From the NCBI RefSeq assembly GCF_011305995.1, contig NZ_CP049910.1, positions 1,054,001 through 1,118,000 of the forward strand: a stretch of DNA of 64,000 bases. The letters run 5' to 3'. Below the pieces are notes generated by a model, which saw only the letters and a list, made by a program, of their open reading frames with translations, had not been told where the DNA came from and did no database searches. Both the position numbers and the translations under genes were made by a program. Source of the DNA: Diaphorobacter sp. HDW4A. Lineage in GTDB: Bacteria > Pseudomonadota > Gammaproteobacteria > Burkholderiales > Burkholderiaceae_C. Shown here piece by piece: positions 12,588 to 40,237 of this stretch (positions are counted from its first letter, which is position 1; every line of letters begins with the position of its first letter).

Positions 12588-13504
12588 GCTGCGCTCCCGG
12601 TCTTGAAGTCGAGCCCGAGCCATTTCTCCCACAGGGTGGCTACGATGGCGTAATCATCGGCGTGCATGCCTTCGCTTGCTGCAATGTCGTACACAGTATG
12701 TGCAGCCTGCGTGGCAAATACGGGCACGTTCAGCGAGTGGGCCAGCTCCAGGAACAGTTTGGAGTCCTTGCGGGCATTGGCGGTGGACATTCCGCCTGTG
12801 AAGTCTCCCTTGAAGAGACGCTCGCCGATGCGGTGTGTCAAAGGCCGTGCCAGGCCCGACTCGCGGTTCAGCAGGCGGTACATGATATCCATGGGAATGT
12901 CTTGTGCAGCACTCACTGCAATGGCTTCGGAGAGCACCACATACACCGCATGGGCCACGGCATTGGCCACGAGCTTGGCGCGCATTCCGCCTCCCTGCCG
13001 TTTGAGATGATGTATCTCTGCTGCGAGCGTGCGCAAAATGGCATCCACCGTAGCAACTTCGCCCTCGGCGGCACCGACCAGAAACACGGCCTGGCCCTGC
13101 TTGAGCGCGTGGATGCCGCCGATGACGGCAGTGTCCACCACCCGCGCCCCGTGTGGAGCCAGCACGGCGTCCAATTCGAAGATGTCCTGCGGCGTGACCG
13201 TGCTCGACTCCATCACCAGCAGACCAGGGTGCACGGAGTCGACCATCTGTTTGGCCACAGCGTGCGAGGCTGCGGGCGTAGGCAGGCAGAAAATCACCAC
13301 GTCCACCGCACCAGTGAGTTCTGCGACCGAAGCGGCCACGCCAACCTGACACTCTTTGACGAGAGCTGGTTCGCGGCTTTTGTCTATTTGGAGATCAAAT
13401 ACAGTCACGGCGTACGACCTCGCCAGTACGCCAGCCATCGCTTGACCCACCTGGCCGAAGCCGATGATGCCGATGCGGAATGTTTCAGAGTTTGTTGGAG
13501 TCAC
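12584..13504 (-). CDS. NAD(P)-dependent oxidoreductase, 3-hydroxyisobutyrate dehydrogenase family
   Basis: A 306-residue beta-hydroxyacid dehydrogenase. The Rossmann motif IGIIGFGQVGQAMA is at 11-24, the substrate-binding ESSTVTPQD region at about 99-107, and the catalytic Lys in GGGMRAKLVANAV at 177. It should oxidise a 3-hydroxy acid or reduce the corresponding semialdehyde. Its ATG overlaps the stop of livF (ATGA) and its own stop overlaps the DUF4392 start, so it bridges the transporter and catabolic halves of one operon. The family cannot fix the substrate. Confidence 0.88.
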   Translation of the reverse strand: MTPTNSETFRIGIIGFGQVGQAMAGVLARSYAVTVFDLQIDKSREPALVKECQVGVAASVAELTGAVDVVIFCLPTPAASHAVAKQMVDSVHPGLLVMESSTVTPQDIFELDAVLAPHGARVVDTAVIGGIHALKQGQAVFLVGAAEGEVATVDAILRTLAAEIHHLKRQGGGMRAKLVANAVAHAVYVVLSEAIAVSAAQDIPMDIMYRLLNRESGLARPLTHRIGERLFKGDFTGGMSTANARKDSKLFLELAHSLNVPVFATQAAHTVYDIAASEGMHADDYAIVATLWEKWLGLDFKTGSAA

Positions 13505-14244
13505 GTTGTTTCGCTCGCTTCAGAAGTGGTGCCGAGATAAAGAGAAATGATCTGGTCATGGCTGCTGGTTGCACGCAATTCGTGGGCATCTTTGCAGCCG
13601 ACGATGCGGCCGTTGCGCATGAAGTAGGCTCGGTCGGCCACCTTCATCGAAATCCAATAGTTCTGCTCGACCAGCAAAATAGTGAGCCCGCCGCAGCGCA
13701 GTTCCTCCAGACGTTCAAAGACCCGCTTGACCAGCAACGGTGCCAGTCCAAGAGAGGGTTCGTCTAGCAACAACAATCGAGGGCGCGACATAAGCGCGCG
13801 GCCGATCACCATCATCTGTTGCTGACCGCCGCTGAGCTGCCAAGAGGGCGCATTCAGCCGCTCCTGCAGCTCGGGAAAGAGCGCGATCACGGCATCGAAC
13901 TGTTCGCGGTTGTCGCGCCTGCTTTGGGTCATACCGCCAAGGAGCAGGTTCTCTTTCACCGTGAGCGCGCGTGCAATGGCGCGGCCCTCGGGCACATATG
14001 ACACGCCCGAGCGAACCAGGCGCTGCGCGCTGCGGCCTGTCATGTCCTCGCTCTTAAATAGCACCTTTCCGGAGAATGGCTCCATCAACCCGGCGATGGA
14101 TTTCATTAGCGTGGACTTCCCCGCACCGTTCGCCCCCAGGAGCACAGTAAGGGAGCCCTGCTTCACGGTGAGTGAGACGTCTTCGATGGCGACCTTGCCG
14201 TCGTAGCCTGCTTTCAAAGATTCGATGCGCAGAAACTCAGACAT
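13501..14244 (-). CDS. livF: Branched-chain-type ABC transporter ATPase, LivF family
   Basis: This 247-residue ATPase has Walker A GANGAGKST, a proper signature LSGGQQQMMVIGRAL and Walker B LLLLDEPSLGLAPLLV, all as in LivF. It energises uptake with LivG, LivH and LivM. Its start overlaps livG by 8 bases. The substrate may be an amino acid, amide or other small organic acid; HAAT-family systems are not limited to branched-chain amino acids. Confidence 0.92.
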   Translation of the reverse strand: MSEFLRIESLKAGYDGKVAIEDVSLTVKQGSLTVLLGANGAGKSTLMKSIAGLMEPFSGKVLFKSEDMTGRSAQRLVRSGVSYVPEGRAIARALTVKENLLLGGMTQSRRDNREQFDAVIALFPELQERLNAPSWQLSGGQQQMMVIGRALMSRPRLLLLDEPSLGLAPLLVKRVFERLEELRCGGLTILLVEQNYWISMKVADRAYFMRNGRIVGCKDAHELRATSSHDQIISLYLGTTSEASETT

Positions 14245-28490: not shown

Positions 28491-29876
28491 TCAAACGGCC
28501 GTCGAGGCGTTGATGGATGCAGGTTCCTTGGCCTGCGCGCTCTTGTAGGTCACGCGCTTGCGTACCAATTGGATGTGGTTGCGCAGTGCATACAGTTCCT
28601 CGGCATAGGACAGCGGCACGCTGATCTTCTCGACTTGAGTTTCCAGCTTGTCGAGTTGCCCGAGCAGCTCCTTGCCGTCGAACGTGCCGCTTTCCATCTC
28701 GTCCTCGATCTCGCGCAGCTTGCCGTACCAGCGGAACACGCGCGAGCGCACTCGGAACTGGTAGAGCGGCGGCACGATGCGCGACAGCGGCAGCATCACG
28801 GCGATCAACAGACCCATCACCAGCCACATGCGCTCGATGAGGTTGGCGATCCAGAACGGCATGTAGCGCTGCAGCGATGGGGTCGGCTCATTGATTGCGC
28901 GTTCGGCTTCCTTGGCGATCGGCAACTCGGCATGTAGCGTGCTCGGAAATTCGCGTGCGCGGTTGAACCAACCGGCCGAACCGTGGATGTTCTGCGCGTT
29001 TTGCGCAAACAGCGTGAGCAGGGCGGGGTGGGTTCCCTCGCGCGCCAGCAGCGAGGTGGTCGACGCCACCAGCCGCACATCACGCTGAGGCACGTTCTTG
29101 GCCAGATCAACCACGCCGCGAGGCAGCGTGACCGGCGTGAGGAACGGAAAGCGGCGGCTGTAGGCCTCGTTCTGCGCAAAGCTCAGCAGCTGCACGCCGG
29201 GGGTCTGCAGCAACATCTGCACCATCAGCGATTCGGGGGCCGATGCGAACACGATGGCGTCAAGTTCGCCGTTCAGAAATGCGACTGTCGCGGGTGTCTG
29301 GCTCAGCTCGCTGAGCGAGAGTTCCTTGAGCTCGATGTGGTTGGCATCCAGCAGTCGCTCCATGAGCTTGGGCAAGCCACTGCCCGCAGAGCCTACGTTC
29401 ACGCGCATGCCACGCAGTTGGTGCAGGCCGTCGAGGCGTTCGCTGCGGGTGAATTTTTTGGCCGAATCGGCGCGGTAGAACAGCCATACCGGCTCGACGA
29501 ACAGACTGCCCAACGACACCAGTTCCTCGCTGTCCTCGGGTTTGAGTTCGCCACTGCCGCCCTGCACGAACGCGAGATCGACTTCGCCGTCGCGCAGCAA
29601 CTGCAGGTTGGAAGAAGAACCTTCGCTCTCGACCAGCTTGACCTCGATGCCATCGGCCTTGAGTGCCTGCTGATAGCGCTTGCCGAACTCCGCATAGGCG
29701 CTCTGGCTCGGGCCGGTGGCGAGCGTCACGGACTTGGGCGGCGTGGGCTTGAGCCACCAGTACGCACCGATCACCAGCGCTACGCCCAGAATGGCCAGCG
29801 GCCCGGCCGAGACCAGCAGATCGCGGATCGACAACAGCAGATTGCGCAGTCCGCGCGACATCTGGGTAACGGTCAT
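28491..29876 (-). CDS. TAXI-family TRAP transporter solute-binding protein with membrane anchors
   Basis: The 461-residue protein opens with one membrane helix (about 24-41). It continues with the TAXI fold (VTLATGPSQSAYAEFGKRYQ, SSSNLQLLRDGEVDLAFVQ, GSGLPKLMERLL) and ends with a second hydrophobic helix near 340-365 and a helical cytoplasmic tail (VRSRVFRWYGKLREIEDEME). Ordinary TAXI receptors are free in the periplasm, so this is the anchored subtype. It follows the P1 peptidase gene with an ATGA overlap. No TRAP permease is near, so a sensory or regulatory role is possible. Confidence 0.82.
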   Translation of the reverse strand: MTVTQMSRGLRNLLLSIRDLLVSAGPLAILGVALVIGAYWWLKPTPPKSVTLATGPSQSAYAEFGKRYQQALKADGIEVKLVESEGSSSNLQLLRDGEVDLAFVQGGSGELKPEDSEELVSLGSLFVEPVWLFYRADSAKKFTRSERLDGLHQLRGMRVNVGSAGSGLPKLMERLLDANHIELKELSLSELSQTPATVAFLNGELDAIVFASAPESLMVQMLLQTPGVQLLSFAQNEAYSRRFPFLTPVTLPRGVVDLAKNVPQRDVRLVASTTSLLAREGTHPALLTLFAQNAQNIHGSAGWFNRAREFPSTLHAELPIAKEAERAINEPTPSLQRYMPFWIANLIERMWLVMGLLIAVMLPLSRIVPPLYQFRVRSRVFRWYGKLREIEDEMESGTFDGKELLGQLDKLETQVEKISVPLSYAEELYALRNHIQLVRKRVTYKSAQAKEPASINASTAV

Positions 29877-30907
29877 GCTGCTACCTCCGCGCGCCAGTCG
29901 GCCAGGCCTGGCAGGACCATGCCATTCGGCAGCGTGATCGAGCCCGCCGCCCGCACCGCTTGCTCGGTCGCCAGCGCCACGGCCTCGGCGGCCATCGCCG
30001 CGAGTACCAGCATGCCGGGGTTTTCATCGACCAGCCCGGTGCCGAGCGCGAACAGCGTGTCACCATCCGTCATCGTGTGCACCGGGTTGATGCTGCGCGC
30101 GAGGCCGTCATGGCCCACCGTGGCCAGGCGCTGGGCCTGCACCTTGGTGATCTGCGCGTCGGTGGCGATCACGCCGATAGTCGTGTTGATGCCCGCCAGC
30201 AGTGATCGCGGCGCCTCGCCTGCGAGCAGCGCGCGGCGCGTGTCGCGCAGACGCTGTCCGTCGTCCGTGCGCGCCCCGGCCAGCGGCGCGGCGTCCTGTG
30301 GCGACACCACATCGCCCACCGCATTGCAGGCGATCAGCGCGCCCACGGTGACCCGGCCCACGCGCACCGAAGCGCTGCCGATGCCGCCCTTCATCGCATT
30401 CTGCAGACCGAACATCTTGCCCACCACGGCCCCGGCACCAGCACCGACATTGCCTTGCTCAATCACCCCACGCGACGCCGCCACGCAGGCTGCATAGCCC
30501 GCCGCCGCATCGGGGCGGATCTTCATGTCGCCCACCGTCAGATCGAACAGCACGGCAGCAGGCACGATGGGCACGAGACCCACGCCCACGTCGAGACCGA
30601 TGCCTTGTTCCTCCAGCCACCGCATGGCGCCGGTCGCGGTATCGAGCCCGTAGGCACTGCCACCGGACAGCATGACTGCGTGCACCTGCTGCACGAGGTT
30701 GGACGGTTCGAGCAAGTCGGTCTCGCGCGTGCCCGGCGCCGCGCCGCGCACATCGACACCCGCCACCGCGCCGCTGCGCGCAAGGACGACGGAACAGCCT
30801 GTCGGGCGGCGTGAATCGGTGAATTGACCGACCTCGATGCCGGTCACATCGGTGATGGAGCCGCAGGGGCCGGTGGGTGCAGAGGGGGAATGTGGGCTGG
30901 GTTGCAT
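29873..30907 (-). CDS. P1-family (DmpA-like) aminopeptidase
   Basis: With ATG 30907 the product has 344 residues. It shows the N-terminal-nucleophile P1/S58 layout: SITDVTGIEVGQFTD, GSAYGLDTATGAMRWLEEQG, AMKGGIGSASVRVG with the expected Gly-Ser self-cleavage site, and VGALIACNAVGDV. Family members release N-terminal amino acids or D-amino-acid amides after autocleavage into two chains. The stop overlaps the start of the TAXI receptor gene, so the two are translationally coupled; the receptor might sense or deliver the peptide substrate. ATG 30958 is a less likely start. Confidence 0.87.
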   Translation of the reverse strand: MQPSPHSPSAPTGPCGSITDVTGIEVGQFTDSRRPTGCSVVLARSGAVAGVDVRGAAPGTRETDLLEPSNLVQQVHAVMLSGGSAYGLDTATGAMRWLEEQGIGLDVGVGLVPIVPAAVLFDLTVGDMKIRPDAAAGYAACVAASRGVIEQGNVGAGAGAVVGKMFGLQNAMKGGIGSASVRVGRVTVGALIACNAVGDVVSPQDAAPLAGARTDDGQRLRDTRRALLAGEAPRSLLAGINTTIGVIATDAQITKVQAQRLATVGHDGLARSINPVHTMTDGDTLFALGTGLVDENPGMLVLAAMAAEAVALATEQAVRAAGSITLPNGMVLPGLADWRAEVAA

Positions 30908-30976
30908 AGCGAATGGATTATCACGCGCCAAGTTGTGAGGCTCGGTGCAAGGTCGCAAACGAATGTTGCTGAGTCC

Positions 30977-31900
30977 TCAGCCTTGATGCCAGATCACCGC
31001 CCATGCAATCAAGACACCGACCAACGCATACAGCAGTCGATACCAAGTCTGCAGCCGCAACAAGCTTTGTGCATTCAGGTTGTTGCGTAGCGCCTTCCAA
31101 GTGAACAGGCCGTGAACAGGGTACAGCAGCGCAGTGACCAGCAACCCGCGCGGTACGCGTTCCTGCAAGGCGAGCAAAAGCAAAAGGGCATACGCCATGC
31201 TGAACAGGATGAAAGCAGCGACAAAGCATGGCCTTTGCCCGAATACGACGGCGTTGGTCCGGATATGGTTCAGCCGGTCGCCCTGGAGTCCGCGAATCTC
31301 GTGATTGAGATGCCCGGCGGCAAATACCAGTCCAAAGAAGACGCTGATGGCCCAGGCATCCAGGGTTGCGGGCGCTATGGCGGCGTATCCGAGCAGAAAA
31401 TGCAGTGCACCGCCGATGACGTGCAACGCGGTGCCACCAATAGGACGAGCCTTCATGTGAAATGGCGCAAGCGAATAGAGCGCGCTGGTGGCGACGATGA
31501 GCATGCCGAACATCAACGACTCGCGGTTCAGCATCCCCAGCAGCAACAGGCTTGTGAACAGTGTCGCAAGTGCAAGCCAGCCTACGGCGGTGCGGGTCAC
31601 CCCTTTGGACGCAAAGGTTCGCGCGGAACGTGTCGGGTCTTGAATGTCTGTCTTGATTTCAGCCCAGTCGTTCACCACAAAGACATGTGCCATAAGACAC
31701 AGATTTCCAGCCACAAGCAGCGCGGCCAATTGCCACCATTGCGTCGACAGCAATCCGCCAGCCAGTTGGCTGGAGGCCAGGAGCGCCCCCATCATCGGCG
31801 TGCCCTGAAGTACCAGTACTTCGTCCAGTCGTATGCTGCCCAGAACCCGCAGACAGCCTCGTGCACTTGCGTTTTTCGTGTCGCTCAACGGGCCACTCAC
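30977..31900 (-). CDS. UbiA-family membrane prenyltransferase-like protein
   Basis: A 307-residue polytopic protein with both polar UbiA motifs: NDWAEIKTD at about 77-85 (first Asp-rich motif, N-D-x-x-E-x-x-x-D) and NHEIRGLQGDRLNHIRT at about 199-215 (second motif, Asp reduced to E/D). UbiA enzymes move a prenyl or other diphosphate-linked group on to an acceptor in the membrane. Its start overlaps the stop of the 1029-residue gene upstream (ATGA), so they are expressed together. Quinone synthesis is unlikely because no ubi or men genes are nearby. Confidence 0.8.
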   Translation of the reverse strand: MSGPLSDTKNASARGCLRVLGSIRLDEVLVLQGTPMMGALLASSQLAGGLLSTQWWQLAALLVAGNLCLMAHVFVVNDWAEIKTDIQDPTRSARTFASKGVTRTAVGWLALATLFTSLLLLGMLNRESLMFGMLIVATSALYSLAPFHMKARPIGGTALHVIGGALHFLLGYAAIAPATLDAWAISVFFGLVFAAGHLNHEIRGLQGDRLNHIRTNAVVFGQRPCFVAAFILFSMAYALLLLLALQERVPRGLLVTALLYPVHGLFTWKALRNNLNAQSLLRLQTWYRLLYALVGVLIAWAVIWHQG

Positions 31901-34900
31901 GACCTCGCTCCCTGGCGAGGCGGCGACGCGGGAACTGCTTCGCCGCCTATCTTCGAACGTTCATTGTCGTGGTACAGGCGTAGCCACAGGGCATAGCCCA
32001 TGTCACGCGACCAGTAGAAGCGTTTCACTGAAGCGCTCATGTCATTGTGAAAGAACAGCAGCGGATCGCGCGTGATCGACGCGAATCCATGGGCGGCCAG
32101 TTGCTTGAGCAGTTCGCTGTTGCTGGCCTGCTCGCTCGGGTCGATCGGCTTGCCTTGCAGTTGACGAATGCGCGCCATCACATTCAGCCAAGGCTGTTGA
32201 CCAGCCACTTGTGTGGACAGGCGATTGACAGGTAACTCAAGCGGGCAGCCAATGCTCTCCAGTTCCTTTAACCGCATGGCGATGGCGGCGGGGGCATGTT
32301 GGTAATACACCCACAGCCGTTCGTCTGCAGCGCGTTTTTGCAGCGCACGGCAAAACGGTGGTGCTTGCGCGGGATACGCGTGGTGCAGCCAGAGCAGGAT
32401 GTGGATCTGAATGCCGATGTCGGGTGGATTCGGGGCACTGCCCGGATCGATGCACTCATATTGATTTTGCGGGGCGAGCCAGGTGCGGTACAAACCGTCG
32501 GCAGTCCGATACTTCTGCAGGGTGGCCAGTGCCCGATCCTGCAAAGCCAAATTGCCATTGGATGCGACACGCCAGACCAGTGCCGTGTCATCGGCATCGG
32601 GCGTGATGCGGCAGCTGATGGTGCCGTGCGTCGCAAGATCTGTGCGGCCGTGGTAGCGCACAAGGCCTGAGTCTTCGATCTGCGTGGACAGGAACGTGCG
32701 CGCGCGCGCCAGCATCTCCTGCGCGCCCGCTTCGCGAGCGACGGGTCCGAGGATGTCGAGCATTTCCGCATTGGAGAAGATGTTCAGCTCCTGCTTGGCG
32801 TCCCGGTACTGCAGGGACTGTGTGTGCTCGGTCAGCCAGTAGCCATCGGCATGTTGTCGATGAGCCAACATGCTGGAAGCGTACTGCGCCGCTTCGGTCA
32901 GCGTCCACGTGCCTGAGGGAGGCTGCGGCATGCGGGTTGGAATGATCAGTTTGGCGGTGGGCAGCGCCAGACCTTTGCCTCCAGACTTGGGGAGCACCAG
33001 CACTGTGAGCACATGCTCGCCGGGGGAGAGGTCTCTGGCGGGCAGGGTGATGCGCCAGCCGCTTGCAGCCAGCACGGCCGTGTACTGCACCACGTCGGGT
33101 CGCTCGAAGAATGTGGTGATGCCTCGCGGATAGGGCTTGCCGTCGAAAAGCAGTTGTACCTGTGCAGGCGTGTCGCCATGGGCCAGAGCCCACCCTGCGA
33201 TGTCGACGGTGTCGCCGGCATGCACGCTGATCGAATCGATGGAGCCCTGCAGGGGCGCGACGGTCGCGTTGTCGGGCGGTGCCTTCAAGTCGAAGGTGAC
33301 ATTCGGCAGGATGCGGGGTTGTGCATTGGGGTGGGAGCGGACCATGGCAGTGAATACATGCCGTCCGGGCTCGTATTCGGTTGACGGAAACACCATGCGC
33401 CACCCGACGGGAGTTCCAATTCCGAGTGAACGTTCGACATCTGGACGCACAACAAACGTGGCGGTCGCTGCAGACCGCTTCTTTCCATCACCCAACAGAT
33501 GCAGGTCATAGGGTGCCTTCCCGCCCAGTAATGTCCAGCCTTCGACCACCATCGAACCTGAAGGGGTGAGAACCGCACGTTCGATCGACCCCATCAGCAG
33601 GGGAGTGAGGTCGTTGAAGAACACGGGCTTGGATAGAAATGGCGCGTTTGAGGTTTTCCAAGCGGCCCGCTTTTCCATCTTGTTCATTTCGGCGGGGGAT
33701 ATCTTGCTGGGCGATGCAAGGGACTGTGCATGCGCTTGACCTGTATATCCGAACGCTCCAAGAGCTTCCATGGCGATGGATGCAAGACATGCCACGATGA
33801 ATACCGCGCGCCCGCTGCGCATCAACGATTGGATTGCCACAGGCAGCAACCAAAAAAGGATCGGCAGCATGTCGGTGAGATAGCGAGGGCCCCAACTGAC
33901 TCCTTGCGTCCAATGCACGGTGGCGTAGAACAGAATCTGCACGGCGACGGCTCCCAGCAGACATCGTGCGAGCAGTGGGGACGACGCTTGCGCGATCACG
34001 GTCCGCAGTCGCAAGACGACGAGCAACAGGAACGGCGAAAAAACGAACAGCCCGTGCACAGGGCTGATCAGCAGTGCCATGATGCCTTCCGGAATCCGGG
34101 ACAGGGTCACCGCCGACTGCGCACCTTGGGCAACGATGCCGTAGCCGCCCATCACATAGCCGGTCATGCCGAGGTTGTAGGCAAGAGTCAGCGCAATTGG
34201 CACCAGTGCGCCTGCTGCAAACGCCGCATAGTGCCCGCGTGCCCAGACCAGTGCATAGGCAGCGAAGCCTGCAGCCAGCAGCGCATCAGGTGGTCGGTTG
34301 CAGGCGATGAGCGCGCATGTCAGACCGAGGCCCATGGCGCTCCATCGGTTGCAGCGGTCGGCGGTGACGAGCCATAGCGCAAAGGTCACCAGCAACTGCG
34401 CGACGCCATGCATCCACAACGCCTGACTGCTGATGACCCAAGTGGACGTGCCAAGTGCGAACACCAATGACAGCAATGCTGCGGTACGTGCGCGGGACTG
34501 TCGCCGCAGCACCAGATACAGCAAGGTGGTGGTGAGGCTCGCGACCAGCGAGGCGCTCAGCTTTTCCATCAGGCGCGCGACCTGATCGAACACGCCCGGG
34601 TGCCAACCGACATGCTCCATATAGAGATACGCCGGCAGATAGAGAGGCGTGACGAGCAGCGGTGTAACCAGGGGGTAGAGCGATACCGGATTGCCGTTGG
34701 GCCCCCGGTTGACCCAGATGATGGCTTCTTTGGGGGAGTCCGGAATCTTGACGCCTTGAGCGACTTGTTCTGCAATGGGTTCGAGTGCCAGGCTGTGGTG
34801 CTTCCAGATCGACAGAGGCAGATACCGCGCCACGTAGCTGTCTGCCGCGCCAATGGAGCGGAGATTGGCGTTGAAGACTGCAAAGCAGATCAGGCCAATG

Positions 34901-34986
34901 GCAAGGCCGATCCATACATCCTGATAGCGTGGACGGTTGGAGTTCTTTGCCATGCCCGGAGGCACCCTCGTTTTTATTGTGCTCAC
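31897..34986 (-). CDS. Large membrane protein: GT-C-like domain, two beta modules, DxDDTA alpha/alpha domain
   Basis: This 1029-residue protein is unusual. Residues 22-410 contain about ten membrane helices and GT-C-like loops (NRGPNGNPVSLYP, SWGPRYLTDMLP), as in lipid-linked sugar transferases. Residues 465-565 and 580-685 look like two related beta-sandwich modules (VVEGWTLLGGKAPYDLHLLGD; VDIAGWALAHGDTPAQVQLL). Residues 690-1005 are helical, with QHADGYWLTE, and contain TPDADDTALVW at 795-805, the exact D-x-D-D-T-A pattern of class II terpene cyclases such as squalene-hopene cyclase. It precedes and overlaps a UbiA-like gene. A role in polyprenyl or terpenoid-linked glycolipid formation is inference; a simple alpha/alpha toroid of other function is the alternative. 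Confidence 0.65.
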   Translation of the reverse strand: MSTIKTRVPPGMAKNSNRPRYQDVWIGLAIGLICFAVFNANLRSIGAADSYVARYLPLSIWKHHSLALEPIAEQVAQGVKIPDSPKEAIIWVNRGPNGNPVSLYPLVTPLLVTPLYLPAYLYMEHVGWHPGVFDQVARLMEKLSASLVASLTTTLLYLVLRRQSRARTAALLSLVFALGTSTWVISSQALWMHGVAQLLVTFALWLVTADRCNRWSAMGLGLTCALIACNRPPDALLAAGFAAYALVWARGHYAAFAAGALVPIALTLAYNLGMTGYVMGGYGIVAQGAQSAVTLSRIPEGIMALLISPVHGLFVFSPFLLLVVLRLRTVIAQASSPLLARCLLGAVAVQILFYATVHWTQGVSWGPRYLTDMLPILFWLLPVAIQSLMRSGRAVFIVACLASIAMEALGAFGYTGQAHAQSLASPSKISPAEMNKMEKRAAWKTSNAPFLSKPVFFNDLTPLLMGSIERAVLTPSGSMVVEGWTLLGGKAPYDLHLLGDGKKRSAATATFVVRPDVERSLGIGTPVGWRMVFPSTEYEPGRHVFTAMVRSHPNAQPRILPNVTFDLKAPPDNATVAPLQGSIDSISVHAGDTVDIAGWALAHGDTPAQVQLLFDGKPYPRGITTFFERPDVVQYTAVLAASGWRITLPARDLSPGEHVLTVLVLPKSGGKGLALPTAKLIIPTRMPQPPSGTWTLTEAAQYASSMLAHRQHADGYWLTEHTQSLQYRDAKQELNIFSNAEMLDILGPVAREAGAQEMLARARTFLSTQIEDSGLVRYHGRTDLATHGTISCRITPDADDTALVWRVASNGNLALQDRALATLQKYRTADGLYRTWLAPQNQYECIDPGSAPNPPDIGIQIHILLWLHHAYPAQAPPFCRALQKRAADERLWVYYQHAPAAIAMRLKELESIGCPLELPVNRLSTQVAGQQPWLNVMARIRQLQGKPIDPSEQASNSELLKQLAAHGFASITRDPLLFFHNDMSASVKRFYWSRDMGYALWLRLYHDNERSKIGGEAVPASPPRQGARS

Positions 34987-35307
34987 TCTGAAACGTACGG
35001 ATAGGGACTGAAAGCATCGTGAATGAGGTCTTGAAAGACTGTCATAAGACAGCAGTCATTCGACGTTTTCAAACCTGCATGTTCACTGTAAGTCGCGGCA
35101 GTGTAGGCCGTTACTCCTGAGTGATGTATAGATTGGTACTATTTTTATGTGAGCGGTGATGATTCGTCCGTGTGGTACCTAACTTTATATGCGTTCATGG
35201 CATATGTATCAAGTTTTATATTATTTTGAGAAATCAATCCAGATCGAGATACTTCATACCCATCAACAAACACATATGCCCTTGCGAGGGTTCTCGGAGA
35301 TAACTAC
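34987..35307. other. AT-rich divergent control region
   Basis: No gene is visible. The segment is markedly richer in A and T than its surroundings, especially 35120-35260. It separates the leftward 1029-residue gene from the rightward MetQ-like gene, so promoters for both are expected. I could not assign confident -35/-10 boxes. GGAG lies 8 bases before the metQ-like ATG. Confidence 0.5.
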
Positions 35308-36150
35308 ATGAGCTTGGTTTCGACTTCCCGCCGTTCCCTGTTGGCAGCCGCAGTGTCGGTGCTCGCGGTTTCCACGGCTTCGCTGGGGCTGGCTGGTGGT
35401 GCGCTGGCGCAGGACGCTGGCAAGAAGCAGCTGGTGATTGGCGGCACGGCGGGCTCGAACATCGATCAACTGCAGTCCGGCATCGTGCCGCTCCTGCAGA
35501 AGAAGGGCTACAAGGTCAAGCTGGTCGAGTTCAATGACTATGTGCAGCCGAATCTTGCGCTGGCCGATGGCTCGCTTGATGCGAACTTCTTCCAGCACGA
35601 GGTGTACTTCAATCAGTTCAAGGGCGACCGCAAGCTCGATCTGGTGGCGTTGACCCAAGGTCCGATCGCGCCGATGGGCATCTATTCGAAGACCCGCAAG
35701 TCGCTGACCGATGCCAAGTCCGGTGATCGCATCGCGCTGCCCAATGACGCGAGCAACTTGGCGCGTGCACTGTTGCTGGTGCAGCAGGCGGGGCTCATCA
35801 AGGTCAAGACCAACGTGAACCCGCTGCGCATCTCGGAGCTGGACATCGCCGAGAACCCGCAAAAGCTCAAGTTTGTGCCGCTCGACGCAGCGCAACTTCC
35901 GCGCTCGCTGGACGATGTGCAGTACGCCATCATCAACGGCAACTTTGCGATCTCCTCGGGTCTCAAGCTGCAGGATGCCGTGGTGCTCGAGAAGACGCCT
36001 GATCACTACCTGAACATCGTGGCCGTGAAGACCAAGGACAAGGATTCGCAATGGGCGAAGGATCTGGCAGAGGCTTTCCATTCCGCCGATTTCAAGACCG
36101 TGGTCGATACCAAGTTTGCGGGTTACGCGAAGCCGAATTTTCTGCAGTGA
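35308..36150 (+). CDS. MetQ/NlpA-family substrate-binding protein
   Basis: The 280-residue protein has a signal peptide cleaved after GALAQ, then the NlpA fold with LVIGGTAGSNIDQLQ, VKLVEFNDYVQPNLALADGSLDANFFQHEVY and FKTVVDTKFAGYAKPNF. MetQ proteins deliver methionine to MetNI. Here there is no lipobox Cys, so the protein should be soluble, and no MetN or MetI gene is adjacent. The substrate may be methionine or another small molecule such as a sulfur compound. A strong terminator follows. Confidence 0.88.
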   Translation: MSLVSTSRRSLLAAAVSVLAVSTASLGLAGGALAQDAGKKQLVIGGTAGSNIDQLQSGIVPLLQKKGYKVKLVEFNDYVQPNLALADGSLDANFFQHEVYFNQFKGDRKLDLVALTQGPIAPMGIYSKTRKSLTDAKSGDRIALPNDASNLARALLLVQQAGLIKVKTNVNPLRISELDIAENPQKLKFVPLDAAQLPRSLDDVQYAIINGNFAISSGLKLQDAVVLEKTPDHYLNIVAVKTKDKDSQWAKDLAEAFHSADFKTVVDTKFAGYAKPNFLQ

Positions 36151-36221: not shown

Positions 36222-36370
36222 GTCCCGGATGGTGTGACACAAGAGGTCTGCAATCGCTTTGGCGGATCGTGAAAGCTTTGATCCGCACGTCATGACCGCG
36301 TCACGCGGTGTCGAAAGAATGGCGCGCATCTCACCCTTGGGAGGGTGGGGCATTCTTCGAAACATCATTC

Positions 36371-39300
36371 ATGACTACTGCCTCCACAACTCGCTCTCCA
36401 TTCACATTCGACACGACACCTATCACGCGTGCACGCACGCAATGGCAGGCACTCGGCGGTGCACTGCTCTTTGGCCTCACGTCGGTCTCGGCATTGGCTG
36501 GACCTGCATCGTTCAACGGACGCTATGAGCAGAACTTCGACACGCTCGCGACCAGTGGCGCGACCAATGTTTGGGACAACGGCAACACGCTGACCGGCTG
36601 GTCGCTGTTCCGTCATGACAACTCGGCATTCACCGCCTATCGCAGTGGTACGGGCAGCGACAACAATGGCGCGTTCTACAGCTTTGGCGCGTCTGGAGCG
36701 GCGGAGCGCGCACTCGGCATTCTGATTTCCGCGAGCGCCTTCAACAACCCGGCTGCGGGCAGCGTCGCGGGTTGGATGGCGCTCGCGTTGAAGAACGACA
36801 CTGGCGCGCTGGTCAATGCACTGAATGTGACATTCAACGGCGAGCAGTGGCGCGGTGGCGGCAACACCAATGCGCAGACGATGGCGCTGCAGTACGGTGT
36901 CGGCGATAGCTTCGAGAGCGTCGCGAGCTGGCAGGACGCCGGTGATCTGTTTCGCTGGGCCACGCCGGTAGTGGGCGCCACGACCGCCAGCAACTTAGGC
37001 AATGACAACGGTCGCGTCGGCAATCTCGGTGGCGATCTGAACAACCTGCAGTGGGCGAATGGTCAGACGCTGTGGCTGCGCTGGGTGAACACACGCATCA
37101 GCGGTACCAACCATGGCATGGCCATTGATGATCTGGTCGTGAAGACCGCGGGTGCCGACACCACCGCGCCAACGCTGAGCACCAGTGTGCCTTCAGCTGG
37201 TGCCACCGACGTCGCGACCTCCACGAGCAGCATCACGTTGAGCTTCAATGAGTCTGTGAAGGTGGGCAGTGGCAGCTTCGAGCTGCGCCAGGGCGCGAAC
37301 GTGTTGGCGACGTTGTCAGTCACCGATGCATCGAAGGTCGCCATCAACGGCCAGACCGTGACGCTCACACCCGGCGTGGCGCTGCAGGCGAACACGGCGT
37401 ATAGCGTGGTGGCGGTGGGCGCGCCGGTTCAGGATCTGTCGAACAATGCATGGGTCGTGAAAACGCTGGCGTTCACCACGGGAGCGCCTCCGTCGATCAC
37501 GCGCATTTCGGCCATTCAAGGCAGTGGCGACGAATCGCCCATGCAGGGTATGACCGTCAATGTGAGCGCGGTTGTCACCGCCTATATGCCGGGGCTCTCG
37601 GGTTTTGTGCTGCAGGAAGCCGATGCAGATGTCGATGCAAATCCGGCCACGTCCGAAGGCATATTCGTCTACTACGGGAGCAACAACCCGGGCGTGAGTG
37701 CGGCCACCGTGGGCAAGCGGGTTCAAGTCTCCGGCACTGTCGACGAGTACAACAGCCAGACGCAGCTCAAAAACCTCACCGCCTTTCAAGTGATTGGCGA
37801 TGCAGTGCTGCCCAAACCCGTGCCACTCATGCTTCCGATCAGCGATGCTGCGTTATGGGAGCGTTATGAGGGCATGCTGGTCAAAGTGACTTCGGCGACC
37901 AGCGGCGGCAAGCTCGTCGTCAGCAATAACTACACGCTTGGTCGTTATGGTGACGTGACCTTGTCGCCAGACCAGGTTCTGCCGCAATTCACGGATGTGA
38001 ATGCACCCAGCGTGGACGGCTTTGCCGCGTATGTAAAGACCATGCAGCGCAGCCAGATCATCCTGGATGACAACAGCAGCAAGTCGAATCCTGAGTCTGT
38101 GCGTGGCCGCAATGGTCAGCCGCTCTCGGCCAGCAACTCGTTGCGTGCGGGGGATGGCGTCGATGCCATCGTCGGCGTGCTCGACCAGTTCTATAGGGCC
38201 AGTGCACCACCGGAAATCTATGAGACCAGCTACCGTGTGCAACCTACAGAGCCGTTGAAATTCACGGGTGCCGAACGCCCTACGGCCTCGGATTTGAAGG
38301 CAGCAGTTGGTGTTGCAGATTTGAAGGTTGCATCGGCCAATGTGCTCAACTTCTTCAGTCAGGTGGGGGACACCGGCAGAAATACTTCAGATGTCTTCAC
38401 GCCACCTGCGGCAGGCAGTGCGCCCATCGGGATTCGCGGTGCCAACGATGCAACGGAACTTGATCGGCAGAAGGCCAAAATCGTCGCCAACCTCGTCGGG
38501 CTCGACGCTGACGTTTATGGACTGATGGAGATTCAAAACAACGGATACGACGCGAGCAGCGCTATCCAACTGTTGGTGGGAGCGATGAACGCGAGTGCCG
38601 ACAAGCCGTCTGGCGCAGACTACGACTTCATCAAGGCTCCGTTCAATCAGGGCAGCGACGTGGCCATGGCTGGTGCGGGCACCGATGCGATTACCGTCGC
38701 CATCGTCTATCGCCGTGATCGCATCAAGCCGGAGGGGCAGGCGGCCGTGCCAAACGTGACGATCTACGATGCGTTCACCTCCGGTGTCGGTGGAGCCCGC
38801 GTGCCGATTGCACAGACCTTTTCGTTCAATGCGCCCACCGGCAAGGAGGTGTTCACCATCGCGGTGAATCACTTCAAGTCCAAGGGTAGCGTGCTCTCCA
38901 GTGGTGACAACGAAGACAAGCTTGACGGTCAGGGAGCGAACAATCCGGCTCGTCTGAAAACGGCCGAGCAGCTTCGTGCGTGGCTAGCAACACAACCCAC
39001 CCGTGCCACCACCAAGAACGTGATTCTGCTGGGTGACATCAACGCCTACAGCAAAGAAGATCCGGTCACGTACTTGGAGAAGAACGGCTACAGTAAAGTC
39101 TCGCAAGGCTATTCCTATTCGTTCCGCGGCCTATGGGGCTCGCTCGATCACATCTTTGTGAGTACCTCGCTGGCGGGCAAAGTGGGCAAGGTGGTGAAGT
39201 GGGTCATCAATGCTGATGAGCCACCGGTTCTTGACTACAACACCGAGTACAAGACCGCCGATCAGATCGCCAACTACTACGCGGCCACGGCCTACCGATC

Positions 39301-40237
39301 GAGCGACCATAACCCTATCGTCATGGGGTTGAACTTCGCCGCCGCGCCCGCCAACCAGCCACCATCCATCAGCGGTGTACCTGCGGCTGTTACGGCGGTC
39401 GCGGTGGGTGCCTCCACCAGCCTCTCCTCTATCAAAGTGGCGGATGTGGACAGCGAACAGCTCACGCTCACCCTCACCGTCATCAACGGCGTAGTGCAAG
39501 GTGTGACCGATGCAGACCCGCAGCTCGCGGGGCTGCAACTCAAGGGCACGCCAGCAGCGATCAACAGCGAGCTTGCCAAGGCCAGCTTCGTCGCTGCGGT
39601 GCAGGGCGACGCCAGCGTGGGCCTGCGCCTGAGCGATGGCGTGAACGACGCCGTCACCGCGACCTATTCCTTCAAGGTGTCCGCCGTGGTCACGCCCGGC
39701 ACCGGCTTTGAGTTGGCTCCCGGCGCGGGCGGCAACGTGACTGGCACGCTGCAGGGCGCGGGTTGCAAGCTTGCCTCGCCGCCGCAATACGTGACTTCAC
39801 AAAGTCAGGGAATCACCGCCATGCCGAGCGCGGGTGCCAGCTTGCCGCATGGCCTGCTGGTGCTCAACGCCACGGGTTGCGATGCCGGTGGTGTCCTCAC
39901 GGTGACGATGAACTACTCAAAGCCGCTGCCCGAAGGCGCCGAACTCTGGAAGTGGGGTCGTACGTCAGACAACACCTCCAAGCACTGGTACCGCGTGCCC
40001 TCCACGGTGTCCGGCCAGACGGTGAGCTTCACGCTGCAGGACGGTGGACTGGGGGATGATGATTTGAAGGCCGACGGCAACATTGCCGACCCGACCGCGC
40101 TGGTCGCTCCGCAGGCGGTGACTCCGCCCGCCGCGACGGTCGCCGTGCCGGTGCTGAATGCATGGGGACTGTTGATGTTGGCGCTGTCCTTCCTGTCGTT
40201 TGCGCCGCTGGCGCGACGCCTTTCGCGAAAGGGTTGA
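36371..40237 (+). CDS. ExeM/NucH-type secreted nuclease with IPTL-CTERM tail
   Basis: The protein of about 1288 residues has an export signal near LLFGLTSVSALAG, then an N-terminal beta domain and an SbsA-like Ig module (DTTAPTLSTSVPSAGATDVA). A DNA-binding/OB-like region leads to an endonuclease/exonuclease/phosphatase domain with the active-site blocks VASANVLNFFS, LMEIQNNGYD, VNHFKSKGS, LLGDINAY and SSDHNPIVMG. The end holds a choice-of-anchor U-like domain and a C-terminal IPTL-CTERM-like tail (VPVLNAWGLLMLALSF then RRLSRKG). It should degrade extracellular DNA. The start is uncertain: GTG 36308 also works and neither has a clear ribosome site. Confidence 0.85.
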   Translation: MTTASTTRSPFTFDTTPITRARTQWQALGGALLFGLTSVSALAGPASFNGRYEQNFDTLATSGATNVWDNGNTLTGWSLFRHDNSAFTAYRSGTGSDNNGAFYSFGASGAAERALGILISASAFNNPAAGSVAGWMALALKNDTGALVNALNVTFNGEQWRGGGNTNAQTMALQYGVGDSFESVASWQDAGDLFRWATPVVGATTASNLGNDNGRVGNLGGDLNNLQWANGQTLWLRWVNTRISGTNHGMAIDDLVVKTAGADTTAPTLSTSVPSAGATDVATSTSSITLSFNESVKVGSGSFELRQGANVLATLSVTDASKVAINGQTVTLTPGVALQANTAYSVVAVGAPVQDLSNNAWVVKTLAFTTGAPPSITRISAIQGSGDESPMQGMTVNVSAVVTAYMPGLSGFVLQEADADVDANPATSEGIFVYYGSNNPGVSAATVGKRVQVSGTVDEYNSQTQLKNLTAFQVIGDAVLPKPVPLMLPISDAALWERYEGMLVKVTSATSGGKLVVSNNYTLGRYGDVTLSPDQVLPQFTDVNAPSVDGFAAYVKTMQRSQIILDDNSSKSNPESVRGRNGQPLSASNSLRAGDGVDAIVGVLDQFYRASAPPEIYETSYRVQPTEPLKFTGAERPTASDLKAAVGVADLKVASANVLNFFSQVGDTGRNTSDVFTPPAAGSAPIGIRGANDATELDRQKAKIVANLVGLDADVYGLMEIQNNGYDASSAIQLLVGAMNASADKPSGADYDFIKAPFNQGSDVAMAGAGTDAITVAIVYRRDRIKPEGQAAVPNVTIYDAFTSGVGGARVPIAQTFSFNAPTGKEVFTIAVNHFKSKGSVLSSGDNEDKLDGQGANNPARLKTAEQLRAWLATQPTRATTKNVILLGDINAYSKEDPVTYLEKNGYSKVSQGYSYSFRGLWGSLDHIFVSTSLAGKVGKVVKWVINADEPPVLDYNTEYKTADQIANYYAATAYRSSDHNPIVMGLNFAAAPANQPPSISGVPAAVTAVAVGASTSLSSIKVADVDSEQLTLTLTVINGVVQGVTDADPQLAGLQLKGTPAAINSELAKASFVAAVQGDASVGLRLSDGVNDAVTATYSFKVSAVVTPGTGFELAPGAGGNVTGTLQGAGCKLASPPQYVTSQSQGITAMPSAGASLPHGLLVLNATGCDAGGVLTVTMNYSKPLPEGAELWKWGRTSDNTSKHWYRVPSTVSGQTVSFTLQDGGLGDDDLKADGNIADPTALVAPQAVTPPAATVAVPVLNAWGLLMLALSFLSFAPLARRLSRKG

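Follow-up and report, generated by a model that had tools for sequence, protein, structure and literature searches.

The window, a stretch of 64,000 nucleotides from Diaphorobacter sp. HDW4A, contains a two-gene module in which a gene for a fusion protein, composed of a membrane half of GT-C fold, two beta modules and an alpha/alpha toroid with the predicted fold of class II terpene cyclases, is followed by a gene for a UbiA-family prenyltransferase (Table 1). We hold it to be close to an even call that this module builds and glycosylates a cyclised, meroterpenoid-like isoprenoid component of the cell envelope. The fusion enzyme appears to be widespread in bacteria but undescribed. Its family runs to 1477 database entries, the relatives listed are mostly named 'hypothetical protein' by their sources, and among the titles and abstract openings listed in a search that covered mainly papers outside subscription, none describes either the fusion or the gene pair. 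DUF6077 and LA_3751/3752 had no occurrence in the literature searched, and the text of the lipocone paper has UbiA once and 'terpene' never (PMC12419801).

Both genes lie where the sequence-only reading had placed them; the strand, which it left out, is the minus strand, and the overlap between them reads GTGA and not ATGA as claimed. An ATG at 34951-34953 is an alternative start of the fusion gene and gives a protein of 1018 aa, the length of the database form P0003. The segment TPDADDTALVW was verified in the translation at residues 795-805. In the survey of loci the UbiA gene adjoined the fusion gene in 70/74 cases, so that the neighbour expected in orthologues is present there, and in one locus (L035) the fusion was present with no UbiA gene within 8.6 kb downstream. 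Hydrogenophaga pseudoflava and Variovorax paradoxus, both harmless, are other carriers of the pair. Among the five neighbouring genes scanned in the window's genome there were 0 polysaccharide genes.

Table 1. Features of the two-gene module (positions in the window; residues of the fusion protein unless UbiA is named).
Feature	Residues	Position	Strand	Basis or conservation
Fusion gene (GT-C half, two beta modules, toroid)	1029 aa, GTG start	31897..34986	-	
Putative GT-C glycosyltransferase half	19-443	33658..34932	-	
Asp49, first loop after TM1	49	34840..34842	-	at least 90% conserved in 81 rows; invariant in 12 rows
Beta module 1	464-567	33286..33597	-	model strands
Beta module 2, Ig-like	579-682	32941..33252	-	model strands
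Toroid domain, class II terpene-cyclase fold	690-1012	31951..32919	-	
QW-like motif QHADGYW	711-717	32836..32856	-	Q..GxW pattern in 223/240 listed relatives
DADDTA, candidate Bronsted-acid motif	797-802	32581..32598	-	DxDDT in 239/240 relatives listed
DPGSAPNPPDIGIQ	847-860	32407..32448	-	pattern in 185/240 listed relatives
HNDMSASVKRFYWS, family-specific conserved block	980-993	32008..32049	-	pattern in 203/240 listed relatives
GTGA, fusion stop overlapping UbiA start		31897..31900	-	sequence; four bases
UbiA-family prenyltransferase gene	307 aa, GTG start	30977..31900	-	
First Asp motif NDWAEIKTD	UbiA 77-85	31646..31672	-	N77, D78 and D85 invariant in 41 rows
Second acidic motif EIRGLQGD	UbiA 201-208	31277..31300	-	E201 and D208 invariant in 41 rows

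The model of the full fusion protein (mean pLDDT 88.0) has the helical C-terminal domain noticed earlier, beginning at residue 696, and this domain is predicted to form an alpha/alpha toroid whose closest fold is that of class II terpene cyclases. A common fold with terpene cyclases does not in itself show function. The DxDDT motif was kept in 239/240 relatives among the matches listed, which include the window's own protein (119/120 in one listing and 120/120 in another), the sole exception being P0013 with DSDNT. As a base rate, the 2001 open frames of 150 aa or more on either side of the gene in the fetched loci, with shadow frames counted (665,447 residues), contained DxDDTA 0 times and DxDDT once. 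Given this conservation and this base rate, the motif is not due to chance, a possibility that the sequence-only reading had left standing, and DADD is a conserved feature of the orthologues. Over 104 rows of the C-domain, 11 of which come from loci found through the motif, 36 columns were invariant, including D108, D110, D111 and T112 (domain numbering). QW-type repeats are a feature of the triterpene branch of class II cyclases, and one motif of the form Q..GxW occurs in most of the relatives listed. A low-confidence profile alignment sets DPGSAPNPPDIGIQ against the squalene-hopene cyclase stretch DPPTxDV, HNDMSASVKRFYWS has many invariant positions in alignments A1 and A2, and for DxDD the spacing agrees with that in the bacterial drimenol synthase AsDMS.

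The toroid has no Pfam model of its own; no terpene-cyclase model was present among the 25 Pfam families listed, of 29, for the 104 members of the C-domain alignment A3, and a PDB sequence search with A3 gave two chance-level matches only. Six squalene-hopene cyclases, fetched by PF13249, were used for comparison. With the uncut proteins hhalign gave a probability of 5.6% and did not pair the motifs, and with their C-terminal parts a greedy local alignment paired the motifs at 3.7-4.0%, whereas a global alignment did not. When the motif was masked the pairing was lost and the alignment moved elsewhere. Homology between the toroid and squalene-hopene cyclase at the level of sequence is thus not shown outside the motif. 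A census of standalone C-domains is unsafe, as many of them come from contigs only 1-3 kb long and are possibly fragments; the one looked at as real was L067. An apparent fusion of C-domain and UbiA (P0225) was also rejected, the toroid running in frame into the first part of UbiA, where the likeness ends in a frameshift-like manner on a contig of 1754 bases.

The N-terminal half is membrane-helical, as had been read from the sequence, with about 13 candidate helices within residues 20-413 of the model and not ten, and the GT-C likeness proposed for it was borne out by a modelled GT-C membrane fold. In GT-C glycosyltransferases the first extracytoplasmic loop carries an acidic residue, and Asp49 occupies this usual place of the catalytic acid, a role that it may have here. 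The GT-C enzymes ALG12, ArnT and AftB resemble the fusion protein in the fold of residues 19-443 and the beginning of beta module 1; to our knowledge none of them carries a toroid of the terpene-cyclase type. Both of the beta modules suspected earlier are seen as strands in the model. The first is missing from many relatives (14/20 rows of alignment A1 are gapped there), and the second has a weak Pfam match to Big_7 (E 0.015), which is below the cut-off. The top Foldseek matches of the full model were the thioester proteins TEP1 and CD109; this was read as a likeness of arrangement only, with beta modules beside a toroid, because cyclases give the toroid much higher scores. The GT-C half is exchanged among relatives, in which a second type of N-half and DUF6077 N-halves stand beside the toroid. 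Profile comparison of the N-half types with each other saw no relation; a protein with the second type (L064) had a weak match (E 0.0042) to a putative glycosyltransferase model that the window's protein also matches. PDB profile searches with two N-half alignments gave zero matches and a PDB sequence search with the whole fusion two chance-level matches only.

The partner gene had been taken for a member of the UbiA family, and PF01040 agrees (87.6 bits against a cut-off of 34.2, E 1.1e-24). Up to E 10, a PDB profile search with the UbiA set listed AfUbiA, DGGGP synthase and UBIAD1. The first two, the best-scoring solved relatives of the set, share PF01040 with the window's protein and differ from it at residue 81, which is usually Asp, is Glu in the window's protein and is mostly Gly in its relatives, and in that no NCBIfam model reaches its own cut-off in the window's UbiA.

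Prenyl transfer together with cyclisation or glycosylation on one membrane platform was the interpretation offered by the sequence-only reading. It is supported, since the predicted fold is that of terpene cyclases, DxDD is conserved and UbiA is adjacent in nearly all loci; the chemistry itself is predicted. In the order of steps that we infer, the UbiA enzyme would transfer a prenyl group from a prenyl diphosphate to a membrane-bound acceptor. The toroid would then act as a class II terpene cyclase, with D799, the second of the three Asp residues of DADD, giving a proton to the terminal double bond of the chain, which thereupon forms rings. Such protonation requires neither a metal nor an energy source, so cyclisation could occur outside the cytoplasm, on the putative periplasmic side of the toroid; if UbiA worked on the cytoplasmic side of the membrane and the toroid on the other, a flippase would be needed. 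The GT-C half would take a sugar from a polyprenyl-phosphate donor and attach it either to the isoprenoid molecule itself or to its carrier glycan. Against this proposal we count the lack of a terpene-cyclase model among the Pfam families listed, the alignment with cyclases through the motif only, the residue other than Asp at UbiA position 81, the scores that do not separate UbiA from the phosphoribosyl kind and the unsure tree that joins it to that side (see below), the locus without UbiA, the lack of polysaccharide genes among the five neighbours scanned and the need for a flippase in the arrangement just described.

The nearest known arrangements differ in their partners. The HAD-terpene cyclase fusions (AsDMS and the fungal AstC) have a soluble phosphatase-like domain where the present protein has a membrane GT-C half, and their motif is DxDTT as compared with DxDDT here, at 12-13% identity; we know of no UbiA partner of such fusions. 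In the MstE-type meroterpenoid pathway a UbiA prenyltransferase stands beside a DxDD cyclase, and the 70/74 loci with UbiA beside the DxDD protein resemble it provided that the toroid does act as a cyclase. MstE itself, a monodomain class II cyclase (merosterolic acid), is a stand-alone enzyme of a natural-product pathway without a GT-C or surface-glycan setting. Its catalytic Asp is D109 (structure 6sbe), and that of AsDMS is D333 (9m7f). The three-component pentofuranose systems (Citrobacter youngae ORF12/ORF15, GT136) have in common with the module a UbiA-family enzyme, a GT-C with an extra domain and a surface glycan; their UbiA is a PRPP user of the DPPRS kind, and the main text describing them never uses the word 'cyclase' (PMC11127046).

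A similar pentofuranose addition is an unlikely function of the present module. In that case UbiA would make polyprenyl-phosphate-ribose from PRPP, the GT-C half would pass this pentofuranose on to a glycan of the cell surface, and the toroid would bind or trim that glycan. This leaves the near-invariant DxDD of the toroid unexplained. The NCBIfam phosphoribosyl models match 10/41 and 7/41 members of the UbiA set and the general prenyltransferase model 41/41, with 17.6 versus 47.2 bits for the window's protein, and the PDB profile search listed no phosphoribosyl enzyme up to E 10 in a copy that may lack 8j8j. Applied to the window's genome at E <= 0.001, the phosphoribosyl model picks out another gene and not the partner UbiA, which is the only match of the chlorophyll-synthase model there. 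In the UbiA tree the set forms its own clade (97*) apart from five phosphoribosyl-type rows, and the KRxxE block in the second motif is found in 0/41 of the set versus 3/5 of those rows. All these results argue against a pentofuranose function. A score-based exclusion of the phosphoribosyl kind was nevertheless rejected, as it fails once the set is compared directly with proteins of both types, five of the phosphoribosyl and eight of the chlorophyll-synthase type: the UbiA profile gave 32.8 and 32.7 bits with two of the former and 30.7 with the best of the latter, and in the tree, which has long branches, the set joins the phosphoribosyl side with a support of 82, flagged as unsure.

The remaining explanations concern the toroid. 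It is rather improbable that it closes the chain end of the lipid (undecaprenyl- or octaprenyl-type) that serves the GT-C half as carrier or donor, for recycling, tagging or anchoring, with UbiA making this special carrier. The fusion to a GT-C, whose donors are polyprenyl phosphates, would suit such a role, as would a genome with two trans-prenyl synthase genes in which PF13249, the squalene-hopene cyclase model, has no match. Against it, single-domain class II enzymes described in two papers take C15 and C20 chains (PMC9128629, PMC9401909). We give little credence to the toroid being a carbohydrate-active hydrolase or epimerase of an alpha/alpha family with DADD as its acid pair. A non-catalytic module that binds or scaffolds a prenylated product beside the GT-C half would fit the motif-only likeness to active cyclases seen with Pfam, hhalign and masking, and is very improbable in view of the DxDDT motif retained by all but one of the relatives listed and the invariant columns that include its residues, in an alignment with some motif-derived rows.

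Under the preferred reading, a cyclase acting with UbiA and GT-C partners, the linkage with UbiA hints that ring-bearing isoprenoids are built into the bacterial surface. That this is the first class II terpene cyclase outside the cytoplasm, which together with UbiA and GT-C attaches a cyclised isoprenoid to a surface glycan or builds it in, as a mobile module in seven phyla, is a wider claim that we regard as doubtful. Should the reading hold, terpene cyclisation would belong to the building of the bacterial envelope as well as to small-molecule and hopanoid metabolism. The fusion would then reveal which sugar transferase pairs with which cyclase. It would also give a testable function to a large family of mostly hypothetical proteins, which would then be a source of cyclases for membrane-bound substrates.

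The two-gene unit proposed by the sequence-only reading stood as regards both genes and their overlap, the overlapping bases being GTGA and not ATGA. The assignment of the second gene to the UbiA family was upheld by PF01040 (E 1.1e-24), the sole Pfam match in the small protein. For the fusion protein, Pfam gave a weak Big_7 match and nothing else, and its N-half matched the NCBIfam LA_3751/3752 putative glycosyltransferases far under the cut-off. With an alternative shorter start at 34951-34953 the product would correspond to the 1018-aa database form (P0003). In a Foldseek list, the beta modules and toroid (residues 463-1020) were arranged like thioester/complement proteins.

Features of the gene pair and its surroundings in the window
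Feature	Position	Strand	Remarks
NMT1-like protein	28491-29876	minus	after pair, same strand; no evident link
Peptidase S58 family protein	29873-30958	minus	after pair, same strand; no evident link
UbiA gene	30977-31900	minus	307 aa
Fusion gene	31897-34986	minus	1029 aa
NlpA-type lipoprotein	35308-36150	plus	divergent from pair
Large protein	36308-40237	plus	Big_5 + endonuclease/exonuclease/phosphatase domain

The possibility that the DxDDTA motif arose by chance was not borne out: DxDDT was present in 239 of the 240 listed relatives, the window's own protein included (the remaining one, P0013, has DSDNT), while the 2001 open frames examined in the flanks (665,447 residues) contained DxDDT once and DxDDTA not at all. 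The listed relatives were 120 of 1477 found at E <= 0.001 among 5102 candidates and 120 of 509 found among 4182 candidates in a search by C-domain alone. Other blocks were also kept, namely RYHG (237/240), Q..GxW (223/240), HND..A.V.R.YWS (203/240) and DPG..PNP.D..IQ (185/240). The fetched loci were found via two patterns, and motif conservation in these loci was left out of the evidence because one pattern contains the DxDD motif; the UbiA neighbour was no selection criterion.

When UbiA was sought by tblastn in 74 loci from named genomes it was present in 70. In 68 cases the UbiA gene was downstream of the fusion gene and shared its strand. Spacing was greatest in L067, with about 420 bases separating the frames; the C-domain of this locus is standalone (348 aa). 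In L072 UbiA was downstream on the other strand (12690-13664, convergent with the fusion gene) and in L077 directly upstream of the C-domain gene. UbiA was not found in L031 and L071, where the contig ends inside the gene, in L076, a broken copy with 1.7 kb of downstream sequence remaining, or in L035, where the fusion gene is followed by 8.6 kb of readable sequence; L035 is a true exception and the only clear one among the 74 loci. No further UbiA of the same kind was detected in the flanks of these loci (tblastn, E 1e-5). The contig of L072 is labelled betaproteobacterial, yet its C-domain groups with Acidobacteriota. On a short metagenome contig, the C-domain of P0225 leads without a break in frame into the initial portion of a UbiA, after which the likeness is lost, a possible direct C-domain/UbiA fusion.

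In six loci (L053, L059, L064, L066, L068 and L073) the C-domain is joined to an N-half unmatched by that of the window's protein (phmmer, E 1e-5), and in L077 to a DUF6077 half. No relation between the N-half types was seen in profile comparison; the N-half of L064 matched weakly (E 0.0042) the same glycosyltransferase model as the window's. Because an early hydrophobic stretch is followed by an acidic motif in the unmatched N-halves, these are read as putative other GT-C types. In a tree of the 74 C-domains the six loci formed one side of a branch (support 100), L077 was placed inside the common type beside two Planctomycetota (support 96), and at least three N-half changes are required, the standalone case being one. 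The tree spans seven phyla, many rows being MAGs, and departs from taxonomy, with Variovorax placed within rhizobia and Tahibacter next to a row from Chloroflexota. It therefore appears that the C-domain and UbiA travelled as a unit, whereas the sugar-transferase half was exchanged. The distances of C-domain and UbiA were correlated (r 0.83, 71 rows), common descent also being a partial cause.

The C-domain was found in 2 of 398 drawn genomes of the phylum and in 3 of 60 relatives, both counts including the window's genome, and in 1 of 5 other genomes of the genus. UbiA adjoined the C-domain in genomes G154, G402 and G405; in G405 (L081/L096) the C-domain is frame-broken and the adjoining UbiA match is free of stops, which may represent a copy undergoing decay in a same-family relative. 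A UbiA close to protein P0002 was found in relatives G402, G405 and G400 (where the contig ends inside the gene), and a distant one in G417.

Families that recurred in the neighbourhood, with names taken from a single scanned member each, included GT2 (13 loci, in most of them immediately after UbiA), a 253-aa methyltransferase (11 loci), GDP-mannose dehydratase-like proteins (9 loci), sulfotransferases (6 loci), polysaccharide pyruvyl transferases (4 loci) and a mixed glycosyltransferase cluster (42). A protein of ~200 aa (L006, 7212-7814), similar in seven loci, recurs in the vicinity of the pair, next to a GT2 gene, and gave no Pfam match in the member scanned. Five neighbours scanned in the window (DUF1631, NMT1-like, peptidase S58, NlpA lipoprotein and nuclease-like protein) included no polysaccharide-type genes. 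The gap between the pair and the NlpA gene is A+T-richer (GC 0.508 in 35000-35499).

The strongest rival explanation is a pentofuranose system of UbiA and GT-C, an established kind (PMC11127046). It is consistent with the GT-C half as well as with the glycan setting, but gives no account of the kept DxDD and agrees more poorly with the UbiA of the pair. In a set of 41 UbiA relatives (A4), the general prenyltransferase model matched all 41 and the phosphoribosyl models 10 and 7. N77, D78, D85, E201 and D208 (numbering of the window's UbiA) were invariant, a second motif, H..[QH]E......D......T, was present in 41/41, and residue 81 is Glu in the window's protein and mostly Gly elsewhere. Against the PDB, the A4 profile matched AfUbiA (E 1.8e-9), DGGGP synthase (E 8.1e-8) and, weakly, UBIAD1. 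The comparison set held five phosphoribosyl-type proteins (two over the model cut-off, three under) and eight chlorophyll-synthase-type proteins (all over). The A4 profile score was not decisive between these kinds because two phosphoribosyl-type proteins reached 32.8 and 32.7 bits, against 30.7 for the best chlorophyll-synthase type. In a tree, the 41 members formed one clade (support 97) separate from both types. The attachment of this clade to the phosphoribosyl side (support 82) was marked as uncertain on account of long branches. The KRxxE block was present in 3/5 phosphoribosyl types, 0/8 chlorophyll-synthase types and 0/41 A4 members. Within the genome of the window, the UbiA of the pair was the only match of the chlorophyll-synthase model, and the phosphoribosyl model matched one other gene only and not this UbiA. 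We lean, not firmly, towards a prenyl diphosphate as the predicted donor. Given that the genome contains three UbiA-family genes, two trans-prenyl synthase genes and no match to PF13249 (squalene-hopene cyclase model), the predicted donor would probably be farnesyl or a long-chain diphosphate.

The reading that best accounts for the three parts and their linkage is one linked module for putative prenyl transfer, cyclisation and glycosylation, which would be performed by UbiA, the toroid and the GT-C half, respectively. Every part belongs to a known superfamily. A UbiA part reportedly also occurs in the system of MstE, a monodomain class II cyclase. MstE is a known cyclase of one domain whose substrate is a prenylated aromatic acid (PMC9401909). 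New features of the present family are its fusion to GT-C, its surface-glycan context and its broad distribution.
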